Positions 4,724 to 36,669 of a DNA stretch of 38,539 nucleotides are shown piece after piece (the first letter of the stretch is position 1; each line of letters starts with the position of its first letter). Origin of the DNA: a virus. The stretch spans positions 1 through 38,539 of the IMG/VR virus record IMGVR_UViG_3300036715_002709. The stretch is one strand, 5' to 3'. A program made the position numbers and the translations under genes. The notes below the pieces were generated by a model. That model was not told the DNA's origin, searched no databases, and worked only from the letters and a program-made list of their open reading frames with translations.

Positions 4724-5680
4724 TTAGAACGCTGAAAGATCAACTGTAAATTTATAAAAGAAATCACTATTTGTACCAGTTTCATCACGATCTGCTGGAT
4801 TTTTTGTTAATGCGTATCTGTTATTGACAAATATTTTCATTGTACCATCATGTCCTGATGTTGATTCATATACTTGTGTTACATAAGGTGAGAAAATATA
4901 TCCTGCATCACCTGGGTCTTTCCCTTGATGTCCTACGATTACATAATCATCTGTTGCATTGTTATCGATATAAATCTGAAAATTTGCAACAGTTCCAAGG
5001 TAGTTTTTGTGTTCTGTTTTCTCAACTGTATCTGAACCCAATGTTAACATCATACCAATTGATGGTGTACATATTACAAATGGATTAAAGAAACGGTTTG
5101 TTTTTGATAGAATTTCCCCGTAAAGTTTTTGTGCTCTATAGATAATTGAGTGTGTACCACCATCAAAGTCAGAATCTGTCTTAGGAATGAGATGTCCCGC
5201 ATCTCCTGCACATGCACGAATATCAGCAATTAATGCACTATTCATATCTTCAATAAGTGTGCTTTTCAACCATGCTGTTAAAAAATCATACCCATTTTCA
5301 CCAAACTGATTAACAAGATCTTGGATAAATTCAATAGTAAAATCTGTTTCTATTTTATGATCTACAGCTGCTACAAAGGTTCTACGTGTTTCTATACCTG
5401 AACCAGGTCCTTCAATAACATTATCATTTGCATCACGTTTACGACCAATTGCAATAATATGACCTTCTGGACCTGTTAATGGTTGTATACTACAAACTTG
5501 TCCTGCAAGCGAAGATGGGTAAACTTCTTTAATAAGTTTTCCAATAATTCTGTCTGTTGGTGAGATATCAGTTGAATCAGTTCCACTCTCATCGATATTA
5601 TCTTTAGAGACCTCAATCAATTCAGTCATTTTTGCTTTGATAGAATTTTCAATCACTAAATCTAAAAGTTTTTCATTCAT
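4724..5680 (-). CDS. Capsid protein of the gp23/gp24 family (HK97 fold)
   Basis: The first ATG at 5704 has no ribosome-binding site. The ATG at 5680 has AAAGGAACATTAT, so I take 5680, giving 318 aa. Similarity to T4 gp24/gp23 is strongest in the middle and C-terminal half: GYDFLTAWLKSTLIEDMN, FNPFVICTPSIG, the NYLGTVANFQIYID segment, DDYVIVGHQG, and IFSPYVTQVYES followed by KIFVNNRYALTKNP, which parallels gp24 DYVIVG...APYTEGL...RYALSANP. The protein is shorter than T4 gp24 (427) and gp23 (521). Candidate gp21-type cleavage sites lie near the N-terminus (V-I-E at 9-11; L-I-E at about 21-23). I cannot tell major shell from vertex protein without seeing the other paralogue. Confidence 0.75.
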   Translation of the reverse strand: MNEKLLDLVIENSIKAKMTELIEVSKDNIDESGTDSTDISPTDRIIGKLIKEVYPSSLAGQVCSIQPLTGPEGHIIAIGRKRDANDNVIEGPGSGIETRRTFVAAVDHKIETDFTIEFIQDLVNQFGENGYDFLTAWLKSTLIEDMNSALIADIRACAGDAGHLIPKTDSDFDGGTHSIIYRAQKLYGEILSKTNRFFNPFVICTPSIGMMLTLGSDTVEKTEHKNYLGTVANFQIYIDNNATDDYVIVGHQGKDPGDAGYIFSPYVTQVYESTSGHDGTMKIFVNNRYALTKNPADRDETGTNSDFFYKFTVDLSAF

Positions 5681-5710
5681 ATAATGTTCCTTTAGTTGTT
5701 TCATTTTGAT

Positions 5711-7613: not shown

Positions 7614-8489
7614 TTAATTACCTGTTGTTGAAGTGTTAACTGCAGAAGAATTATCAAGTAACAATTCTTCTGTTGGTGCTACTGGTGTTTCAACAACTGG
7701 TGCTGTTGCATCTACTGGTGTTTCAACAACCGGTGCATCTACAACTGCTGGTGTTTCAACTGGTGCTTCGACAACTGGTGTTTCAACTGGTGCTTCAACA
7801 ATAGGTGTTTCAACTGGGGCTTCGACAGGTGCATCAACAACTACTGGTGCTGTTTCAACTGGTGCTGTTTCAACTGGTGCATCTACAACTGGTGCATCTA
7901 CAACCGGTGCATCAACAACAACTGGTGTTTCAACAACTGGTGTTTCAACTGGTGCATCTACAACTGGTACTTCAACCGCTGGTGCATCTACAACTGGTGC
8001 ATCAACAACAACTGGTGTTTCAACAACTGGTGTTTCAACTGGTGCATCTACAACTGGTACTTCAACCGCTGGTGTTTCTACAACTGGTGCATCAACAACT
8101 GGTGTTTCAACAACTGGTGTTTCAACAACTGGTGTTTCAACTGCTGGTGTTTCAACAGGTGCATCTACAACTGGTGCTGTTTCAACAACTGGTGCTTCGA
8201 CAGGTGCATCAACAATAGGAGTTTCTACAGCTGGTGCTTCAACTGGTGCATCTACAACTGGTGCATCAACAACTGGTGTTTTTACAACTGGAGTTTTAAC
8301 ACCTTTTTTACCTGATTTTATTTTAGGTGTTTCTTCAGTTGTTTCTTCAATAATTATTTTGAAATGTTTAGGGAATTTTGTAGTAAGCTCAGATTCCATA
8401 TATTCAATTCCATTTTTTATTACAACAATTTTGAATCCAAGGTCAACGCTGATACTTTCACGATCAAGATTTGCGATATATTTTTTCAT
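7614..8489 (-). CDS. Pro/Val-rich pentapeptide-repeat protein
   Basis: A 291-residue protein. The first 50 residues are non-repetitive (MKKYIANLDRESISVDLGFK...). From about residue 65 to 270 the protein is imperfect pentapeptides of the type PVVET, PVVDA, PAVEV and PVEAP, roughly 40 units, then a short tail. A proline every few residues with alternating Val and Asp/Glu predicts an extended, acidic, rod-like stalk. The DNA is a GC-richer 15-bp-type tandem repeat, unlike its neighbours. It is transcribed with the gp13 neck gene from a late promoter, so a neck- or head-attached fibre or linker is plausible. No homologue is recognised. Confidence 0.65.
   Translation of the reverse strand: MKKYIANLDRESISVDLGFKIVVIKNGIEYMESELTTKFPKHFKIIIEETTEETPKIKSGKKGVKTPVVKTPVVDAPVVDAPVEAPAVETPIVDAPVEAPVVETAPVVDAPVETPAVETPVVETPVVETPVVDAPVVETPAVEVPVVDAPVETPVVETPVVVDAPVVDAPAVEVPVVDAPVETPVVETPVVVDAPVVDAPVVDAPVETAPVETAPVVVDAPVEAPVETPIVEAPVETPVVEAPVETPAVVDAPVVETPVDATAPVVETPVAPTEELLLDNSSAVNTSTTGN
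7660..8295. repeat. Tandem minisatellite inside the repeat protein
   Basis: About 40 degenerate 15-bp units, mostly combinations of ACAACTGGTGTTTCA and ACAACTGGTGCATCT in plus-strand reading. Two longer blocks (about 7920-7990 and 8000-8070) are near-identical, indicating recent internal duplication. Confidence 0.85.
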
Positions 8490-9522: not shown

Positions 9523-9897
9523 TTAAATAATCTTACATGGAATACTTGCATCTTCATCATATGCATAAATCGCACACATACGGTGATATCCGTCTGCAAT
9601 GATAACTTTACCATTTACTTCATCTCTAACAAGTAAAAGTGGTGATAATGAATCACCTTTTTTTATTTTTTGTTTGTTCTTTCTAACGTGAGAATTACTT
9701 ACACCTAATAAAGAAAGGTCAGAAGCCCTGAATATATCCTTAGCTTTAAACGCTGACATTGTAGTTTGTTTAAGTTGTTTAACTAAATTCTCTACCATCA
9801 CTGAATCATAAATCAAACTTAAATAAGATTCCGCTGCAGGATAATCATGTTCTTCTGGTTCATTTAACCATTTAATTTCATATGTGTTTGATGCCAT
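9523..9897 (-). CDS. ParB/Srx-like domain protein
   Basis: A 124-residue protein. The C-terminal half, SPLLLVRDEVNGKVIIADGY followed by HRMCAIYAYDED, is the ParB-nuclease/sulfiredoxin-like motif in which a conserved DGYHR sequence binds nucleotide. The N-terminal half has ALKDIFRASDLSLLGV-like spacing. Stand-alone ParB-like proteins are common in phages and their roles are mostly unknown; some act as CTPases, nucleases or ADP-ribosylation-like modifiers. It has a good ribosome-binding site (GGAGAAAAACA). No partner parA is nearby, so a partition role is unlikely. Confidence 0.7.
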   Translation of the reverse strand: MASNTYEIKWLNEPEEHDYPAAESYLSLIYDSVMVENLVKQLKQTTMSAFKAKDIFRASDLSLLGVSNSHVRKNKQKIKKGDSLSPLLLVRDEVNGKVIIADGYHRMCAIYAYDEDASIPCKII

Positions 9898-11687: not shown

Positions 11688-12209
11688 TCATTTGTGATAT
11701 TTAGTTAAACAATTCATAACATCAGGATATGACTGCCATAAACCTGAGTGAGTTTGAATAGATAATGATTGGTCTTGAAGTAATTGATCACGATATTTTA
11801 TATCACTCATATCACGACCAGTGTGCCACACATATGCATAACCATCTTTTATCATCATTTCATTAAGATTAATATTTTTTAAGAATACAATCGCTACATC
11901 ACGGTCATGTGATGCATCACCCGTTGGTTTTATCTCAACAATATCACCTATCTTGATGATTGAATCAAGATGATTTGAAGATAATTTAGCTGCATCCACT
12001 GTGGTTTTACCACACTCTTTAATATCACTTTTTGCTTTGTAAGAAAATAAAAATTTCTCTGGAGAATCAATATCAGCAAAACGTAATTTTGTTACATTAC
12101 CATCATTTGATTTTACTGTAATAGTATCACCATCAATAAGTTTAACAACAGTTGCTGGATATGCAAATAACGTAGCAATGAATAACAATGTCAATATAAT
12201 TTTTTTCAT
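11688..12209 (-). CDS. Secreted thermonuclease-like (SNase family) nuclease
   Basis: A 173-residue protein with a clear signal peptide (MKKIILTLLFIATLFA, cleavage near residue 16). It then has the staphylococcal nuclease fold: VVKLIDGDTI (D28), KLRFADIDSPE (R43, D48, E51) and HDRDVAIVF (R103). All catalytic and calcium-ligand positions of SNase are kept. It should hydrolyse DNA or RNA in the periplasm or outside the cell. Two cysteines (about 66 and near the C-terminus) could form a disulfide, fitting export. Export suggests roles such as degrading incoming competing phage DNA or scavenging nucleotides, both inference. Confidence 0.85.
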   Translation of the reverse strand: MKKIILTLLFIATLFAYPATVVKLIDGDTITVKSNDGNVTKLRFADIDSPEKFLFSYKAKSDIKECGKTTVDAAKLSSNHLDSIIKIGDIVEIKPTGDASHDRDVAIVFLKNINLNEMMIKDGYAYVWHTGRDMSDIKYRDQLLQDQSLSIQTHSGLWQSYPDVMNCLTKYHK

Positions 12210-13377: not shown

Positions 13378-14274
13378 TTATATTTTTATTATTTTATCTA
13401 ATTCCTGCAATACACGTTGAGAATTTGATTTTTTGTAAATATCATCCCACATTTCTTTGATTGCCTTGTAAGATGTTTTGTCTGGATTAAATCCTTTTAC
13501 AGAAACAAATCTCATAAATCTCCAGGCACGAAGATAATCTTCTTTGATTCTGTCTTTTGGTTTACCAACAAAACGTAATGTTTTTGATTTAATATCATTA
13601 AGTCCTTGCGTTGTAGGGTCAATCAATCTACGAGTTGTTAGGTTAAAATATAATGCATTTACAGTAAAATCACGTCTTTCTGCATCATCATAAATTGTTC
13701 CAATCTCAACACTTTCGGGACGTCTACCATCAACATATGTGCCATCTTTTCTATAATTTGCAATTTCATAATTAACATTATCCTTTGATACAATCATAAC
13801 AAGAAATTGTTTTCCTTCTTCTTTAACAGTGAACCCTGCATTGATAAAAAGTTTTTCTAATTCTTCATAAGGAATATCTGTAACAAAATCGAAATCTTTT
13901 GGCGTTTTGTCAATCAATATATCACGAACACATCCACCAACGAGACATGAATTTTCTGAATGTTGAAGAACCTCAATAATATCTTTAGATAAAAATGATG
14001 AAATGAGTTTAAATTTAAAACTTGCATTATCAAGATCTCTTAAGATATTATTAAGGATTTCTGACAATATTGTAAAATCTTTATTTCCAATACAGATTTC
14101 AAATAAATCATGTACTGTATAAAACAATTCAATATCTGTATTGTCTGCAAGGTCAATAAGTTTTCCTACCTGTTCAGCAGTACAATTTGTTTTAAGTGCT
14201 TTATAATCATTTACTTTGTATCGGAAAAAATCTTCATTAATTTTATTAACTAGTATTTTTTTATATTCTTTCAT
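13378..14274 (-). CDS. tRNA nucleotidyltransferase / poly(A) polymerase family protein
   Basis: A 298-residue class II nucleotidyltransferase. LVGGCVRD (111-118) binds nucleotide, DFDF (127-130) carries the two metal-binding aspartates, and ERRDFTVNALYF (about 208-219) is the motif C region. They are followed by LIDPTTQGLNDI and the neck motif DRIKEDYLRAWRFMRF. This is the head of CCA-adding and PcnB-type enzymes. The usual long C-terminal body and tail are missing, while an extra 100-residue helical segment precedes the catalytic head. Likely substrates are tRNA 3' ends, but poly(A) activity cannot be excluded. Promoter at 14300-14321. Confidence 0.82.
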   Translation of the reverse strand: MKEYKKILVNKINEDFFRYKVNDYKALKTNCTAEQVGKLIDLADNTDIELFYTVHDLFEICIGNKDFTILSEILNNILRDLDNASFKFKLISSFLSKDIIEVLQHSENSCLVGGCVRDILIDKTPKDFDFVTDIPYEELEKLFINAGFTVKEEGKQFLVMIVSKDNVNYEIANYRKDGTYVDGRRPESVEIGTIYDDAERRDFTVNALYFNLTTRRLIDPTTQGLNDIKSKTLRFVGKPKDRIKEDYLRAWRFMRFVSVKGFNPDKTSYKAIKEMWDDIYKKSNSQRVLQELDKIIKI

Positions 14275-15310: not shown

Positions 15311-15892
15311 ATGACTTTTCAAAAACTACTAGAAAAATTTACAGATATTGGAAAATTATCCGATACACAACTCAAGAAAGGACACCCACTTACTAATGAA
15401 GATTTTGTAGAAGTTGATGGCACTGTTTTTTTCAATGCAATTACAAAAATAAAAATTAATGACATTGCAAGATTAAACAAGGGATTGCCGTCAAAAGGAT
15501 TACATACTCTTACAGTATATAAGCGTGATGATTATAACAAGATGAAATGTTACATAGGTGAAAATAATTCATCAGGATATGCATTACAAGATAAACACGA
15601 ACTTGTATCTGTATTCAGTTCATTAGGTTCTTCAGGTAATGCAATTATGTTGTCTGCTGTTAAAAATGGTGCTAATCATTTAGATTGTTTTGCGTTACGT
15701 GATAAAGAAGGAAATATCTCAGGTCCATTGTACTCATTGTATTCAAAACATGGTTTCAAAATTGACAAATCAATGAATTCAGGAAAACCAGGTGAGTCAT
15801 ATGCAATTGTTAAAGGCGTTTCAGATTACGTTGATGATAATGAAATTGTTCATCCTGATGATGAAAGAGTCGTTATCTTTATGAAACGATAA
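15311..15892 (+). CDS. Possible internal head protein, weak acetyltransferase resemblance
   Basis: A 193-residue protein with ATG behind AAGGTGACCTTAA and a late promoter 33 nt upstream. The N-terminus MTFQKLLEKF resembles the capsid-targeting starts of other proteins here, with L-L-E at residues 6-8. The segment ANHLDCFALRDKEG...LYSLYSKHGF recalls the C-terminal part of GNAT acetyltransferases (LDCF...LY...GF), but the acetyl-CoA loop is not clear. Its 3' end overlaps the convergent amidohydrolase gene by 14 nt. The late plus-strand expression supports a virion role; enzyme activity is a guess. Confidence 0.55.
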   Translation: MTFQKLLEKFTDIGKLSDTQLKKGHPLTNEDFVEVDGTVFFNAITKIKINDIARLNKGLPSKGLHTLTVYKRDDYNKMKCYIGENNSSGYALQDKHELVSVFSSLGSSGNAIMLSAVKNGANHLDCFALRDKEGNISGPLYSLYSKHGFKIDKSMNSGKPGESYAIVKGVSDYVDDNEIVHPDDERVVIFMKR

Positions 15893-16622
15893 TCATTCCT
15901 GCTTCATAATTGCTGATAATTTCAAGAACATTGAATATATCAGCTTTTAAATTATCGAAATTATCAGTCTTAATTGCAACAAAATCTTCATTCCTCATAT
16001 ACAATTTCCTATTAACCTCAATCATAATGCTTTGAACTTTATCACGATGTGTTGCATACCTATCAGGACATATGCTACCACTGTATGGATAATTGAAACT
16101 TACCTTATATCCTTTAGATGATAGATATTTGTAAATTTTCAATATGAGATACTGATCGGGTGCGTTATAATCAGTGAATCCAATACATATATCAGGTTCT
16201 GCAATTCCTGCAATTCTATAACCAATTCCTTCTTGAAAAGAATGGCAATCAACAATTACTGAAACTGGATATATACCATGATATTGTTCTACAAAACTCT
16301 CTAATTTTTTGTGATAATCAATATATTCTGATATATCATAATTTTCAACAGTTTTTAGTCGAAAACCATCAAGTGTTTTTGTGTAGATAATACCACGACC
16401 AGCATTATTATTATCATATTCACGTGAATCATTGAATCGTTCCATATCAATATGTAGACGGCTTTTATCTGCAATCAATCTGGTTGATGCATCATACACA
16501 AATAATTCATCTGTGAACCAGTCAGTTGAATAGAATAATTCTTTTTTAAGTGTTTCATCATTTACGAGGAATAATCCACGCTCATAAATTTTCGAACTTG
16601 CATGTGGGATGTTTAATATCAT
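15879..16622 (-). CDS. N-formylglutamate amidohydrolase-like protein
   Basis: A 247-residue protein of the FGase family. Conserved elements are IPHASSKI (5-12), DWFTDELF (34-41), RLHIDMERFND (55-65), VDCHSF (124-129), DICIGFTD (144-151), YPYSGS (178-183) and IMIEVNRKLYM (199-209). The zinc-binding His and Asp/Glu positions are kept. In bacteria the enzyme releases formate from N-formylglutamate in histidine breakdown. In a phage the substrate is unknown, and another N-acylated amino acid or peptide is possible. The gene is complete and stands alone, 53 nt from the primase gene. Confidence 0.8.
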   Translation of the reverse strand: MILNIPHASSKIYERGLFLVNDETLKKELFYSTDWFTDELFVYDASTRLIADKSRLHIDMERFNDSREYDNNNAGRGIIYTKTLDGFRLKTVENYDISEYIDYHKKLESFVEQYHGIYPVSVIVDCHSFQEGIGYRIAGIAEPDICIGFTDYNAPDQYLILKIYKYLSSKGYKVSFNYPYSGSICPDRYATHRDKVQSIMIEVNRKLYMRNEDFVAIKTDNFDNLKADIFNVLEIISNYEAGMIIVS

Positions 16623-18402: not shown

Positions 18403-18477
18403 CAATGTATAAAATAAAATAACTGGGTTATATATTATAGTTATTTTATTTTATACATTGATTGGGAAACCCCAATC
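18403..18477 (-). terminator. Double hairpin after the TonB-receptor-like gene
   Basis: A GATTGGG/CCCAATC hairpin (18460-18477) overlaps the stop codon. It is followed by a perfect 22-bp inverted repeat (arms 18403-18424 and 18439-18460) around a 14-nt loop. There is no long T-run, so termination is likely but not certain. Confidence 0.55.
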
Positions 18478-20182
18478 AAAAATTATACCCAAGTCTTGCA
18501 GTAAAACTTCGCTCAGGTACATCAACTGCAGAACCCATAACCCTACCATCATTATTGAATATATTGTTTAATGTTATTCCATATAACCATTTATTGTAAG
18601 TATTTGAATAACCAACATCAAATGTATTCAATCCTTTATTGTTATATTCATTATATGCAGAATTTATAACTCTTACATCATTCATATCTGATGCAGATAA
18701 GTTAATTCCTTTATGTGCATAATTCCAGGTAACAAAATAATGATTATATTCATTTTTCCAATAAACTTTCCAAGGAGTGATTTTACTCATATAATCTGAA
18801 TCATCTTTCCCATATACATATTGAAAATTAAATACAGAACCGAATAAATCTTTATCATATGTTAATGTTGCATCTACACCTTTAACGATACCATTTCCAA
18901 CATTTTGTACTTGATATTGATCTACACCAGATATACGACCAACTTTAACACTTGATATTGCATTATCAAGATGCATATAATAACCACTGATATTGTAAGT
19001 AAAATAATTAATCACATCTTTAATACCTAAAGAATATGTTGTTGACGTTTCTGGAACTAATGAATTATTCGGTACATCATTTCCTTTACCTGTAGTTATT
19101 GAATAATAAAGATTATTCGCTGTAGGAAGTTTATATCCACCTCTTATGCTACCATATACAATATTTTTTTGTAATTCTACATTGTAACTGTATGTGTCGA
19201 AATTCTTAGTAACATCATTTTGTCTGTTTGTAGTTTGTGCCCATACACCATCAATATTTGTTTTTAATTTAATACCATCCAGTTCATTTTTGTAACCGAT
19301 ACCTGCAGTTGTAGTATTATATGTAAAATCTTTTTGATTATACATAAGATCTTCGTATGAATCCATCAATTTAACATTAAAACCAGAATCAAAATTATGT
19401 ATATATTTAGCACCATAAACATTATTAGTTGAATCAATCTCATTACCATTATCGTCTACATTTTCTACAAATCGTTGATAACTTATATTGAATATATCAT
19501 TACTAGTTAGTTTATATGAATCTTTGATGAAAATATAATTCTGATCTAGATATGTATATGTTTTTCCTTGAATATATTTGTCTAATCTGTCAATATCTGA
19601 TGATGTGCTATATAAAGCAATAAAAGTATTGTTTCCTGTATTATTTTTAATAAAGATTGCATTTTGATTGTATGCAGTATGATCGATATTATTATAATCA
19701 TCTGTTTTGTATAACTTCAACCCGACAGTTGTATTATCATATTTCTCAGTTGCAATTAATTTTCTACCTTGATCATATGAACTATATTCTGTGTATATTT
19801 GTGAAACATCAGTAAGATGCGAATCAACACTTAAACCAATTGCATTTCCTGATTCCAATTTGTAATCTACAAACTCATTAGGTATCCATGAAAAATATTG
19901 ATTTGGGCCGCTTCTGAAATTTGAATTATTCATAATAACATCTTCAAATTTGACACCAACTAATTCGCCTTGAAGTCCCTGAATTACTGGACTATTCATT
20001 CCAGGTGCAGTTTGTTGAATATTCATTTTAGTTTGTATTGCACTAAAATCAACCTCATTATCTCTGTATTCAGGAATAGATATATATGATGATGAATTTG
20101 CATCAACAATTATTGGTGGTAATGTAATATTATCTGATGCAGATAATATCATTCCTATTAATAATGATAAAAATATTTTCAT
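18476..20182 (-). CDS. TonB-dependent receptor-like outer membrane protein with reduced plug
   Basis: A 568-residue protein with a signal peptide (MKIFLSLLIGMILSA, likely cut after residue 15) and a TonB-box-like ITLPPIIVDA (19-28). It then has plug features: PVIQGLQGELVGVKFEDV (65-82) and NNSNFRSGPNQY (85-96), a pattern typical of siderophore and haem receptors (IRGL...DGV..NN..FR.GPNQY). The rest is amphipathic beta strands ending in SFTARLGYNF, with the terminal Phe needed for barrel assembly. Bacterial receptors usually have 650-750 residues. Here the plug stretch RIEVVRGP-SVLYGS-AIGG is replaced by the short YKLESGNAIGLS. It is driven by a weak member of the extended -10 family and closed by strong hairpins. 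Possible roles are nutrient uptake, receptor decoy or superinfection exclusion. The family call is solid; the role is not known. Confidence 0.8.
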   Translation of the reverse strand: MKIFLSLLIGMILSASDNITLPPIIVDANSSSYISIPEYRDNEVDFSAIQTKMNIQQTAPGMNSPVIQGLQGELVGVKFEDVIMNNSNFRSGPNQYFSWIPNEFVDYKLESGNAIGLSVDSHLTDVSQIYTEYSSYDQGRKLIATEKYDNTTVGLKLYKTDDYNNIDHTAYNQNAIFIKNNTGNNTFIALYSTSSDIDRLDKYIQGKTYTYLDQNYIFIKDSYKLTSNDIFNISYQRFVENVDDNGNEIDSTNNVYGAKYIHNFDSGFNVKLMDSYEDLMYNQKDFTYNTTTAGIGYKNELDGIKLKTNIDGVWAQTTNRQNDVTKNFDTYSYNVELQKNIVYGSIRGGYKLPTANNLYYSITTGKGNDVPNNSLVPETSTTYSLGIKDVINYFTYNISGYYMHLDNAISSVKVGRISGVDQYQVQNVGNGIVKGVDATLTYDKDLFGSVFNFQYVYGKDDSDYMSKITPWKVYWKNEYNHYFVTWNYAHKGINLSASDMNDVRVINSAYNEYNNKGLNTFDVGYSNTYNKWLYGITLNNIFNNDGRVMGSAVDVPERSFTARLGYNF

Positions 20183-29025: not shown

Positions 29026-29709
29026 TTAAAATAAAATATTTACTTTATCAAATAATAATTTAGATGAATTAGTATTTTTAGGAACTACCGAAAAAAGTCC
29101 TTCAAATACAATATTAGCAATTCTTCCTTTAGAGCGTAACTTTGCTAATTCAGAATATCCTTGAACATTTACTATTTTATTAAATCCTGTAGATAATGAA
29201 TCTTTATTAGCTTTTCCTAGATCTGACCATACAGTACCATCTTTACCATTAAGTGTTAGTTTGTTATTTAATCTGATTACATATGCATCCTGATTATATT
29301 TTCTTGAAATCTTAATGGCAATGTTATTAAATTCCTCAGGTGAAATATTATCAGGTCTAATGATTAACCAAGTTTCCTCTAATGCGTTTGTTATGCTTCC
29401 TTTACAGTCAGAAATTTTCTCATCGTCTTTTAATTCTTGTGAACATTCTTTCCAATGTCCAACAATTTTATAAGCACCTGCATTAGATTTTGTTTCCTCT
29501 CGGAAAAATCTTAACAAATCATTATTATTTGAGGCATTTATCTTTTTTGAGTTACCACCACGTGCTGCCGTGATGAATAAAAAATCACTACCATCATCAA
29601 GTTTGCTTAATACCCTAGACAATCCTGCACCAGATTCATCAAGTGTTCCTGTGTAATCGTTTTCATATTGTTCTTTTATTGTTTTATTAAAAAATTCTTT
29701 AAATTTCAT
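29026..29709 (-). CDS. Candidate internal head protein, 227 aa
   Basis: N-terminus MKFKEFFNKTIKEQYEND: MKFK-type start with I-K-E at 11-13, the gp21 cleavage rule. The body has FLFITAARGGNSKK, AYKIVGHWKEC and ETWLIIR, a pattern I know from conserved phage proteins of unknown function (SA.RG...N...L...L). It has an exact late promoter TATAAATA at 29735 overlapping an extended -10 promoter. Late expression and the N-terminal signal support packaging in the head. Confidence 0.62.
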   Translation of the reverse strand: MKFKEFFNKTIKEQYENDYTGTLDESGAGLSRVLSKLDDGSDFLFITAARGGNSKKINASNNNDLLRFFREETKSNAGAYKIVGHWKECSQELKDDEKISDCKGSITNALEETWLIIRPDNISPEEFNNIAIKISRKYNQDAYVIRLNNKLTLNGKDGTVWSDLGKANKDSLSTGFNKIVNVQGYSELAKLRSKGRIANIVFEGLFSVVPKNTNSSKLLFDKVNILF

Positions 29710-36216: not shown

Positions 36217-36669
36217 TTATTTTTTCCCTGCATCATCAATTGCTAAGAAAATTTCGAGATCCTTTTTCAATTCAGGTGTAAGTTTCTCCCAACGTCTAGT
36301 TACACGACGTCCACGAGCAACAAGTCCTTTTTGTTCACTTAGATACATATCACGTAATAGGTAATGGTGACGAATAATATCTTTTGTCCAATCAGAAATA
36401 AAAGGACAATTTTTAATAATGTGCCAACTCATTTCCTCATGATTTGTAAAACTATAAGTTCCAGATACAACATCTTTTGGATTACGTTGATGTGCAACAA
36501 AAGGTTTACCAATATCATGAAGTAATGCAGGAACAATAAAACGAAATTGACCTGATTTAATTGCGTGAAAAGTAACACTTAATGTGTGCCCTAAAACGCT
36601 ATGTTTATGCCATCTGTTTTGTTTAATGAATAATGAGGTTAAAAATGGTTTTGATAAAATTTTGTTCAT
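36217..36669 (-). CDS. HD-domain phosphohydrolase
   Basis: A 150-residue HD protein: HKHSVLGHTL (21-30), HDIGKP (51-56), NHEEMS (76-81) and RHHYLLRD (100-107) give the metal-binding set. It is likely a nucleotide or small-phosphoester hydrolase. Its promoter is at 36692. Confidence 0.78.
   Translation of the reverse strand: MNKILSKPFLTSLFIKQNRWHKHSVLGHTLSVTFHAIKSGQFRFIVPALLHDIGKPFVAHQRNPKDVVSGTYSFTNHEEMSWHIIKNCPFISDWTKDIIRHHYLLRDMYLSEQKGLVARGRRVTRRWEKLTPELKKDLEIFLAIDDAGKK

Follow-up and report, generated by a model that had tools for sequence, protein, structure and literature searches.

We identified a TonB-dependent receptor (TBDR)-like gene at positions 18476-20182 (minus strand) of the window, by which we mean the whole 38,539-nucleotide stretch of viral DNA analyzed here (IMG/VR record IMGVR_UViG_3300036715_002709). 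As judged from its presence at the same site in three phage lineages and from the purifying selection acting on it, this gene, of a cellular type, is a stable part of a phage genome. Its product groups with a short-plug subfamily of TBDRs found in Sulfurimonas and Sulfuricurvum. Because the neighborhoods of all known bacterial relatives hold phosphatase genes, we favor, by a modest balance of probability, a reading in which the phage receptor is an auxiliary metabolic gene for the uptake of phosphorus compounds, powered by the TonB of the host.

The reading frame encodes 568 amino acids and ends in the terminal phenylalanine that an earlier note on this DNA, made from the letters alone, had pointed out. 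By eye, a hydrophobic N-terminal leader of about residues 1-15 (MKIFLSLLIGMILSA; 20138-20182, minus strand) is a probable signal peptide, and residues 20-26 (TLPPIIV; 20105-20125, minus strand) resemble a TonB box, with the pattern T-L-x-P-h-x-V present at these residues in all three phage lineages. The protein matches the Pfam family TonB_dep_Rec_b-barrel (PF00593, E 4.6e-10, above the family cut-off) and has no match to the Pfam Plug family (PF07715). Its PHROGs match, phrog_5687, is a 760-aa family without function and covers the C-terminal 232 residues; searches of NCBIfam and, with the single sequence, of PDB sequences returned no match. Compared profile to profile (hhalign), the family aligns with full-length TBDRs over 528 columns, plug region included (E 3e-21), and the family profile also matches the PDB sequences of PhuR (E 6.6e-14) and OprC (E 5e-5).

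AlphaFold, run on an alignment of 42 homologues that contained ordinary TBDRs and so informed the model, predicts 22-23 long strand runs (DSSP) and an N-terminal plug (pLDDT 76.9, pTM 0.79); with four close sequences and without ordinary TBDRs it gave a pLDDT of 26 and no fold. In the model, residues 128-568 (18479-19801, minus strand) form a beta-barrel of ~22 strands by DSSP. Residues 45-127 (19802-20050, minus strand) form a shortened plug domain of strands and short helices, predicted at moderate confidence (pLDDT about 50-80). The model superposes on BtuB starting at residue 18 or 27, which takes in the plug, and the top PDB fold matches (Z 27-31) are all TBDRs. The best of them, ChuA, BtuB, ShuA, ZnuD and OprC, have tied scores (Z ~29-31) and an rmsd of ~3 Å across ~500 residues at 10-15% identity. 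The phage protein is thus TBDR-like with, in the model, a complete TBDR fold, the barrel with plug that the earlier note expected; it is neither a tail fibre nor a capsid protein, as it gave no match of that kind and has the fold of a TBDR. The best solved folds belong to receptors for heme (ChuA/ShuA/PhuR), copper (OprC) and B12 (BtuB), as would be the case if the protein imported a substrate other than phosphorus (heme, iron, copper or cobalamin) whose supply sets a limit to phage production or to host respiration. These matches, however, are to the general TBDR fold, and none of the genes adjoining the four bacterial copies described below was recognized as serving iron, heme, copper or B12. 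We consider import of such a substrate unlikely.

The window also carries a T4-type gene set with a gp23-like capsid protein, UvsW, UvsY, a family-B DNA polymerase, topoisomerase, ThyX, primase, RNase H/exonuclease, SSB (gp32) and clamp (gp45). Together with the Pfam barrel and the fold matches, this set bears out the initial description of a TBDR-like gene in a T4-type phage. The receptor gene is present in four IMG/VR contigs, one of them identical to the window across 24.7 kb, one carrying a copy at 87% protein identity and two, of one lineage, at 83%. Related phages were a suggested place to look for the gene, and they do carry it: three distinct T4-like lineages, represented by five contigs, have it at the same site, between the same T4-like replication-gene flanks and in constant gene order. 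When the flanking primase and RNase H served as queries in place of the receptor, the same phages came back, and the receptor gene was present in all contigs of at least 68% identity that span the site. No relative of the phage receptor was found among 50,697 phage records; an ordinary TBDR used as query of the phage collection matched mostly bacterial-looking contigs or unverified short records, which were not counted.

In contig L085, the next nearest phage (its RNase H is 49% identical), nothing separates the RNase H and primase genes, so that the receptor region has the appearance of having been inserted in this phage clade. The proposal that the gene behaves as an independent cassette therefore holds in part: the flanks have the look of an insertion, and the phage-family promoter included in that proposal is unsupported, promoter-like sites being no commoner than in shuffled sequence. 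The contig is derived from a metagenome and genes of this type are rare in phages, which might point to host sequence joined to phage sequence in the assembly, or to a decaying gene captured by chance. Against this stand the five contigs of three lineages with one site and one set of replication-gene flanks, a dN/dS of about 0.12-0.15 without frameshift or stop, and a codon usage and GC content that fit the phage; we find such an origin scarcely credible, and host contamination is ruled out by the five contigs and their synteny. The receptor gene belongs to the phage.

Two hairpins lie downstream of the gene (18403-18475, minus strand; MFE -29.7 kcal/mol, z -6.4). These closing hairpins, already seen in the earlier reading, are real and probably mark a transcript end or an RNA-stabilizing element. 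They are retained in the 87% relative and not seen in the 83% relative, and no U-tract terminator pattern matched at their position. A T4 late promoter, TATAAATA, was rejected as a candidate for the receptor gene: the sole copy near the start faces the divergent gene, and across the window the motif is not commoner than expected. With a Campylobacter-type consensus, no Pho-box-like site was found near the receptor gene, and sites elsewhere were near chance.

Between the window copy and the other phage lineages, the dN/dS given above indicates that the receptor gene is under purifying selection. Conservation is uneven along the protein: 94% of plug residues (45-127) are invariant between phage lineages, compared with 79-83% in the barrel and 39% in the leader and TonB-box region. 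The plug motif NN.NFR.GPNQY, picked out at first sight, is real and sits within the most conserved part of the family. The absence of the VRGP..LYGS segment was likewise verified, but the conclusion drawn from it, that the plug is damaged, does not stand, as the same short plug is common to four bacterial homologues and is the most constant part of a protein with low dN/dS. A damaged or decaying receptor was rejected on the grounds of plug conservation and low dN/dS. Loss of VRGP..LYG could alter gating.

With a dS of 0.41 to the 87% relative, the receptor gene shows the least synonymous divergence of any gene compared; to the 83% relative (dS 0.72, where most genes have values of 1.0-2.5), only the capsid gene lies below it. 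These values suggest that the receptor gene was exchanged among these phages by recombination, later than the split of their backbones. Codon usage alone does not explain the low dS: the codon scores of gp32 and gp45 are similar to that of the receptor gene or above it, yet their dS is higher. A separate observation concerns the gp23-like capsid gene (4724-5704, minus strand), whose dS to the 83% lineage is only 0.27 while most genes exceed 1, suggesting that the capsid gene too was recently exchanged between lineages.

The search for the closest bacterial receptor led to the Sulfurimonadaceae. The genome collection holds two full-length homologues, from Sulfuricurvum (36% identity) and Sulfurimonas (31%). 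In 228 Sulfurimonadaceae genomes, a profile search recovered full-length members from four (E below 1e-127), followed by a gap down to E 8e-13, where ordinary TBDRs begin; at strict cut-offs, neither a sample of 298 genomes from the phylum nor one of 399 from the order yielded any beyond the known ones. The bacterial homologues (L059-L062) are 561-565 aa long and 30-36% identical to the phage protein over the full length. In a tree with several long branches and an arbitrary root, the seven short proteins, phage and bacterial, form one clade apart from 35 ordinary TBDRs (support 100/100, recovered in all 200 bootstrap trees). All seven lack VRGP..LYG and share a plug motif of the G(P/S)NQYFS type.

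The gene neighborhoods of the bacterial copies suggest a function. In Sulfuricurvum (L006/L061) the short gene lies in a cluster of a TBDR, PhoD, the short gene, PhoX and a phosphoesterase, and in Sulfurimonas (L007/L062) it follows ExbB, ExbD, TonB, a TPR protein and a PhoX-like gene. The L060 cluster reads phytase, TonB, ExbD, ExbB, TBDR, short gene, phosphoesterase and PhoD, and the L059 cluster comprises the end of a TBDR, the short gene, a phosphoesterase and PhoD. Phosphatase genes thus stand beside the short gene at all four bacterial loci, compared with none of 20 ordinary TBDR neighborhoods of 9.5-14 kb each from the same family. The exact probability of this difference, calculated by hand, is about 1e-4, an overstated figure as L059 and L060 are close relatives and the four clusters amount to about three independent cases. 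Taken together, Sulfurimonadaceae (Sulfurimonas, Sulfuricurvum) appear, from these neighborhoods, to employ short-plug TBDRs in partnership with phosphatases that are secreted or periplasmic.

In three of the four bacterial clusters the short gene has an ordinary full-length TBDR, or part of one, for a neighbor, and the short protein may for this reason be an accessory. Combined with a plug that is short, lacks VRGP..LYG and escapes the Pfam Plug model, this arrangement could also be taken to indicate a membrane protein without transport function, either an accessory subunit or anchor of a phosphatase or a helper in outer-membrane remodeling or lysis, in which the short plug reflects lost TonB gating. 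Against such a role, the plug is strongly conserved, and at L062 no other TBDR was seen in the 19 kb that hold the short gene, which is accompanied by an ExbB-ExbD-TonB set of its own. We therefore regard a non-transport function as improbable.

A search of the phage contigs for the phosphatase, TonB and ExbBD genes of the bacterial clusters came back empty, and the phage gene is a member of the short-plug clade by descent and not by neighborhood. TBDRs are classic phage receptors, and a phage that carries one with no metabolic partner gene, and retains it in every lineage of the clade spanning the site, might use it for superinfection exclusion or receptor masking: the phage protein would compete with, replace or complex the host receptor, or act as a decoy for free phage. 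There are also phage proteins known to inactivate FhuA (PMC11436027). However, the invariant part of the protein is the periplasm-facing plug and not the exposed loops, while a decoy is expected to need the outer surface only, and the bacterial relatives are tied to phosphatases and not to a known phage receptor. The protein also has no match to known defense families, which is uninformative for new kinds of defense. On this evidence exclusion or masking, although the main rival to phosphorus import, seems distinctly unlikely.

We return to phosphorus import as the preferred reading. Phage phosphorus genes are common, and the known auxiliary genes of this kind act in the periplasm, the inner membrane or the cytoplasm. 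In the mechanism we propose, a phage acquired a short-plug TBDR gene and retained it as an auxiliary metabolic gene. The leader, the fold and the terminal phenylalanine suggest that the product would be exported and inserted in the outer membrane via the Sec and BAM machineries of the host. Energy would come from the TonB-ExbB-ExbD of the host, the phage contigs carrying none. The receptor would then take up a phosphorus compound, such as a phosphate ester, a phytate-like molecule or a product of nucleic-acid breakdown, as the phosphatase association in bacteria suggests. Host phosphatases would finally release phosphate for viral DNA synthesis, in keeping with the precedent that phage-borne phosphorus-acquisition genes provide for phage phosphorus supply (PMC10987575). 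A second precedent is found in Bacteroidota, where Flavobacterium TBDRs linked to phosphatases are induced by phosphate starvation (PMC8115612). Against the phosphorus-import reading stand the lack of partner genes on the phage contigs and of a Pho-box-like site near the gene; moreover, association with a neighbor is not function, and the substrate may differ from that of the bacterial copies because identity is only 30-36%. In its fullest form, the proposal is that T4-like phages of chemolithotrophic Sulfurimonadaceae install a TonB-driven importer of organic phosphorus in the outer membrane to feed viral DNA synthesis, adding a new gate instead of boosting inner-membrane transport; this we hold to be plausible, if just short of probable.

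Assignment of the phage to a Sulfurimonadaceae host is likely because of DNA matches at two places in the window and of amidohydrolase homologues. A small gene at 9523-9897 and an HD-domain gene (36217-36669, minus strand) each align with DNA of Sulfurimonadaceae for more than 300 bases, at 65-73% identity. The HD-domain gene has 65-70% DNA identity to a gene in many Sulfurimonadaceae genomes and is likely host-derived and a marker of the host. Sulfurimonadaceae homologues of the N-formylglutamate amidohydrolase gene reach 48% identity in amino acids. As to the DNA polymerase, T4-like phages of Vibrio and Campylobacter have versions 33-36% identical to it. CRISPR spacers were rejected as host evidence: short near-exact matches at ~12.2 kb recur in AT-rich sequence of host genomes.

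Several other genes of the window merit description. The amidohydrolase (15879-16622, minus strand; Pfam 1.8e-32) belongs to a family unusual for a T4-like phage and has homologues in 15 of the 228 Sulfurimonadaceae genomes. A Staphylococcal-nuclease-like protein (11688-12209, minus strand) with a hydrophobic leader (MKKIILTLLFIATLFA) is kept in both other phage lineages; it is probably exported, and in that case could serve to draw on external DNA as food or to degrade the DNA of incoming phages. A gene at 13378-14274 (minus strand) encodes a Poly-A polymerase/tRNA nucleotidyltransferase head domain (Pfam 9.2e-32), and the window contains no tRNA gene. At 29026-29709 (minus strand) lies the gene of a possible anti-restriction protein, which matches the S-adenosylmethionine lyase family weakly, at the Pfam cut-off. 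Adjoining a structural gene, a long low-complexity protein (7614-8489, minus strand) is built of PVVDAPVETP-like repeat units, which match their own sequence and short stretches of host genomes.

If the receptor is used as we propose, the hold of the virus over nutrition would reach as far as the cell's outermost barrier, and the added receptor would also alter the surface used by other phages and by bacteriocins. The analysis further points to a short-plug TBDR subfamily, not described before, that goes with phytase, PhoX and PhoD in sulfur-oxidizing Campylobacterota. In the open-access literature, a phrase search for phage-encoded TonB receptors found none, a wider search led to the SusC-like TBDR of a marine megaphage (Mar_Mega_1, PMC9723777), and a phage-borne, phosphatase-linked short-plug receptor in Sulfurimonadaceae T4-like phages was not found. 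TBDRs are thus almost unknown in phages, with the megaphage SusC as the one named precedent found.

The phage protein resembles the Gram-negative TBDRs ChuA/ShuA, BtuB, Cir, OprC and PhuR in its 22-strand-type barrel, N-terminal plug, terminal phenylalanine and BtuB-like size, but differs from them in lacking VRGP..LYG, in going unseen by Pfam Plug, in being phage-borne and in its 10-15% identity. In Flavobacterium, TBDR/SusCD (PusCD) systems likewise share clusters with phosphatases or phytase and are switched on when phosphate is depleted (PMC8115612), whereas they belong to Bacteroidota, have larger receptors with extra domains, are experimentally regulated and are not phage-borne. Phage phosphorus genes of the pstS, phoH and phoD types are also thought to raise phosphorus supply in infection, but their products are periplasmic, cytoplasmic or enzymatic, and the text describing them mentions neither TonB nor phytase (PMC10987575). 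The SusC-like TBDR of marine megaphages (Mar_Mega_1, PMC9723777; A0A8D9FQQ5 in BFVD, from an uncultured marine phage) is, like the present protein, a phage-carried TBDR, proposed as an auxiliary metabolic gene; it differs in being of the SusC type, about 805 aa long, proposed for carbohydrates, located in a megaphage and only 12% identical. The SusC A0A8D9FQQ5 was the only strong full-fold match in a fold search of predicted viral proteins. The short TBDRs of Sulfurimonas and Sulfuricurvum share with the phage protein a similar length, the same short plug and one clade; the bacterial copies stand beside phosphatases, some with TonB-ExbBD, while the phage copy stands alone.
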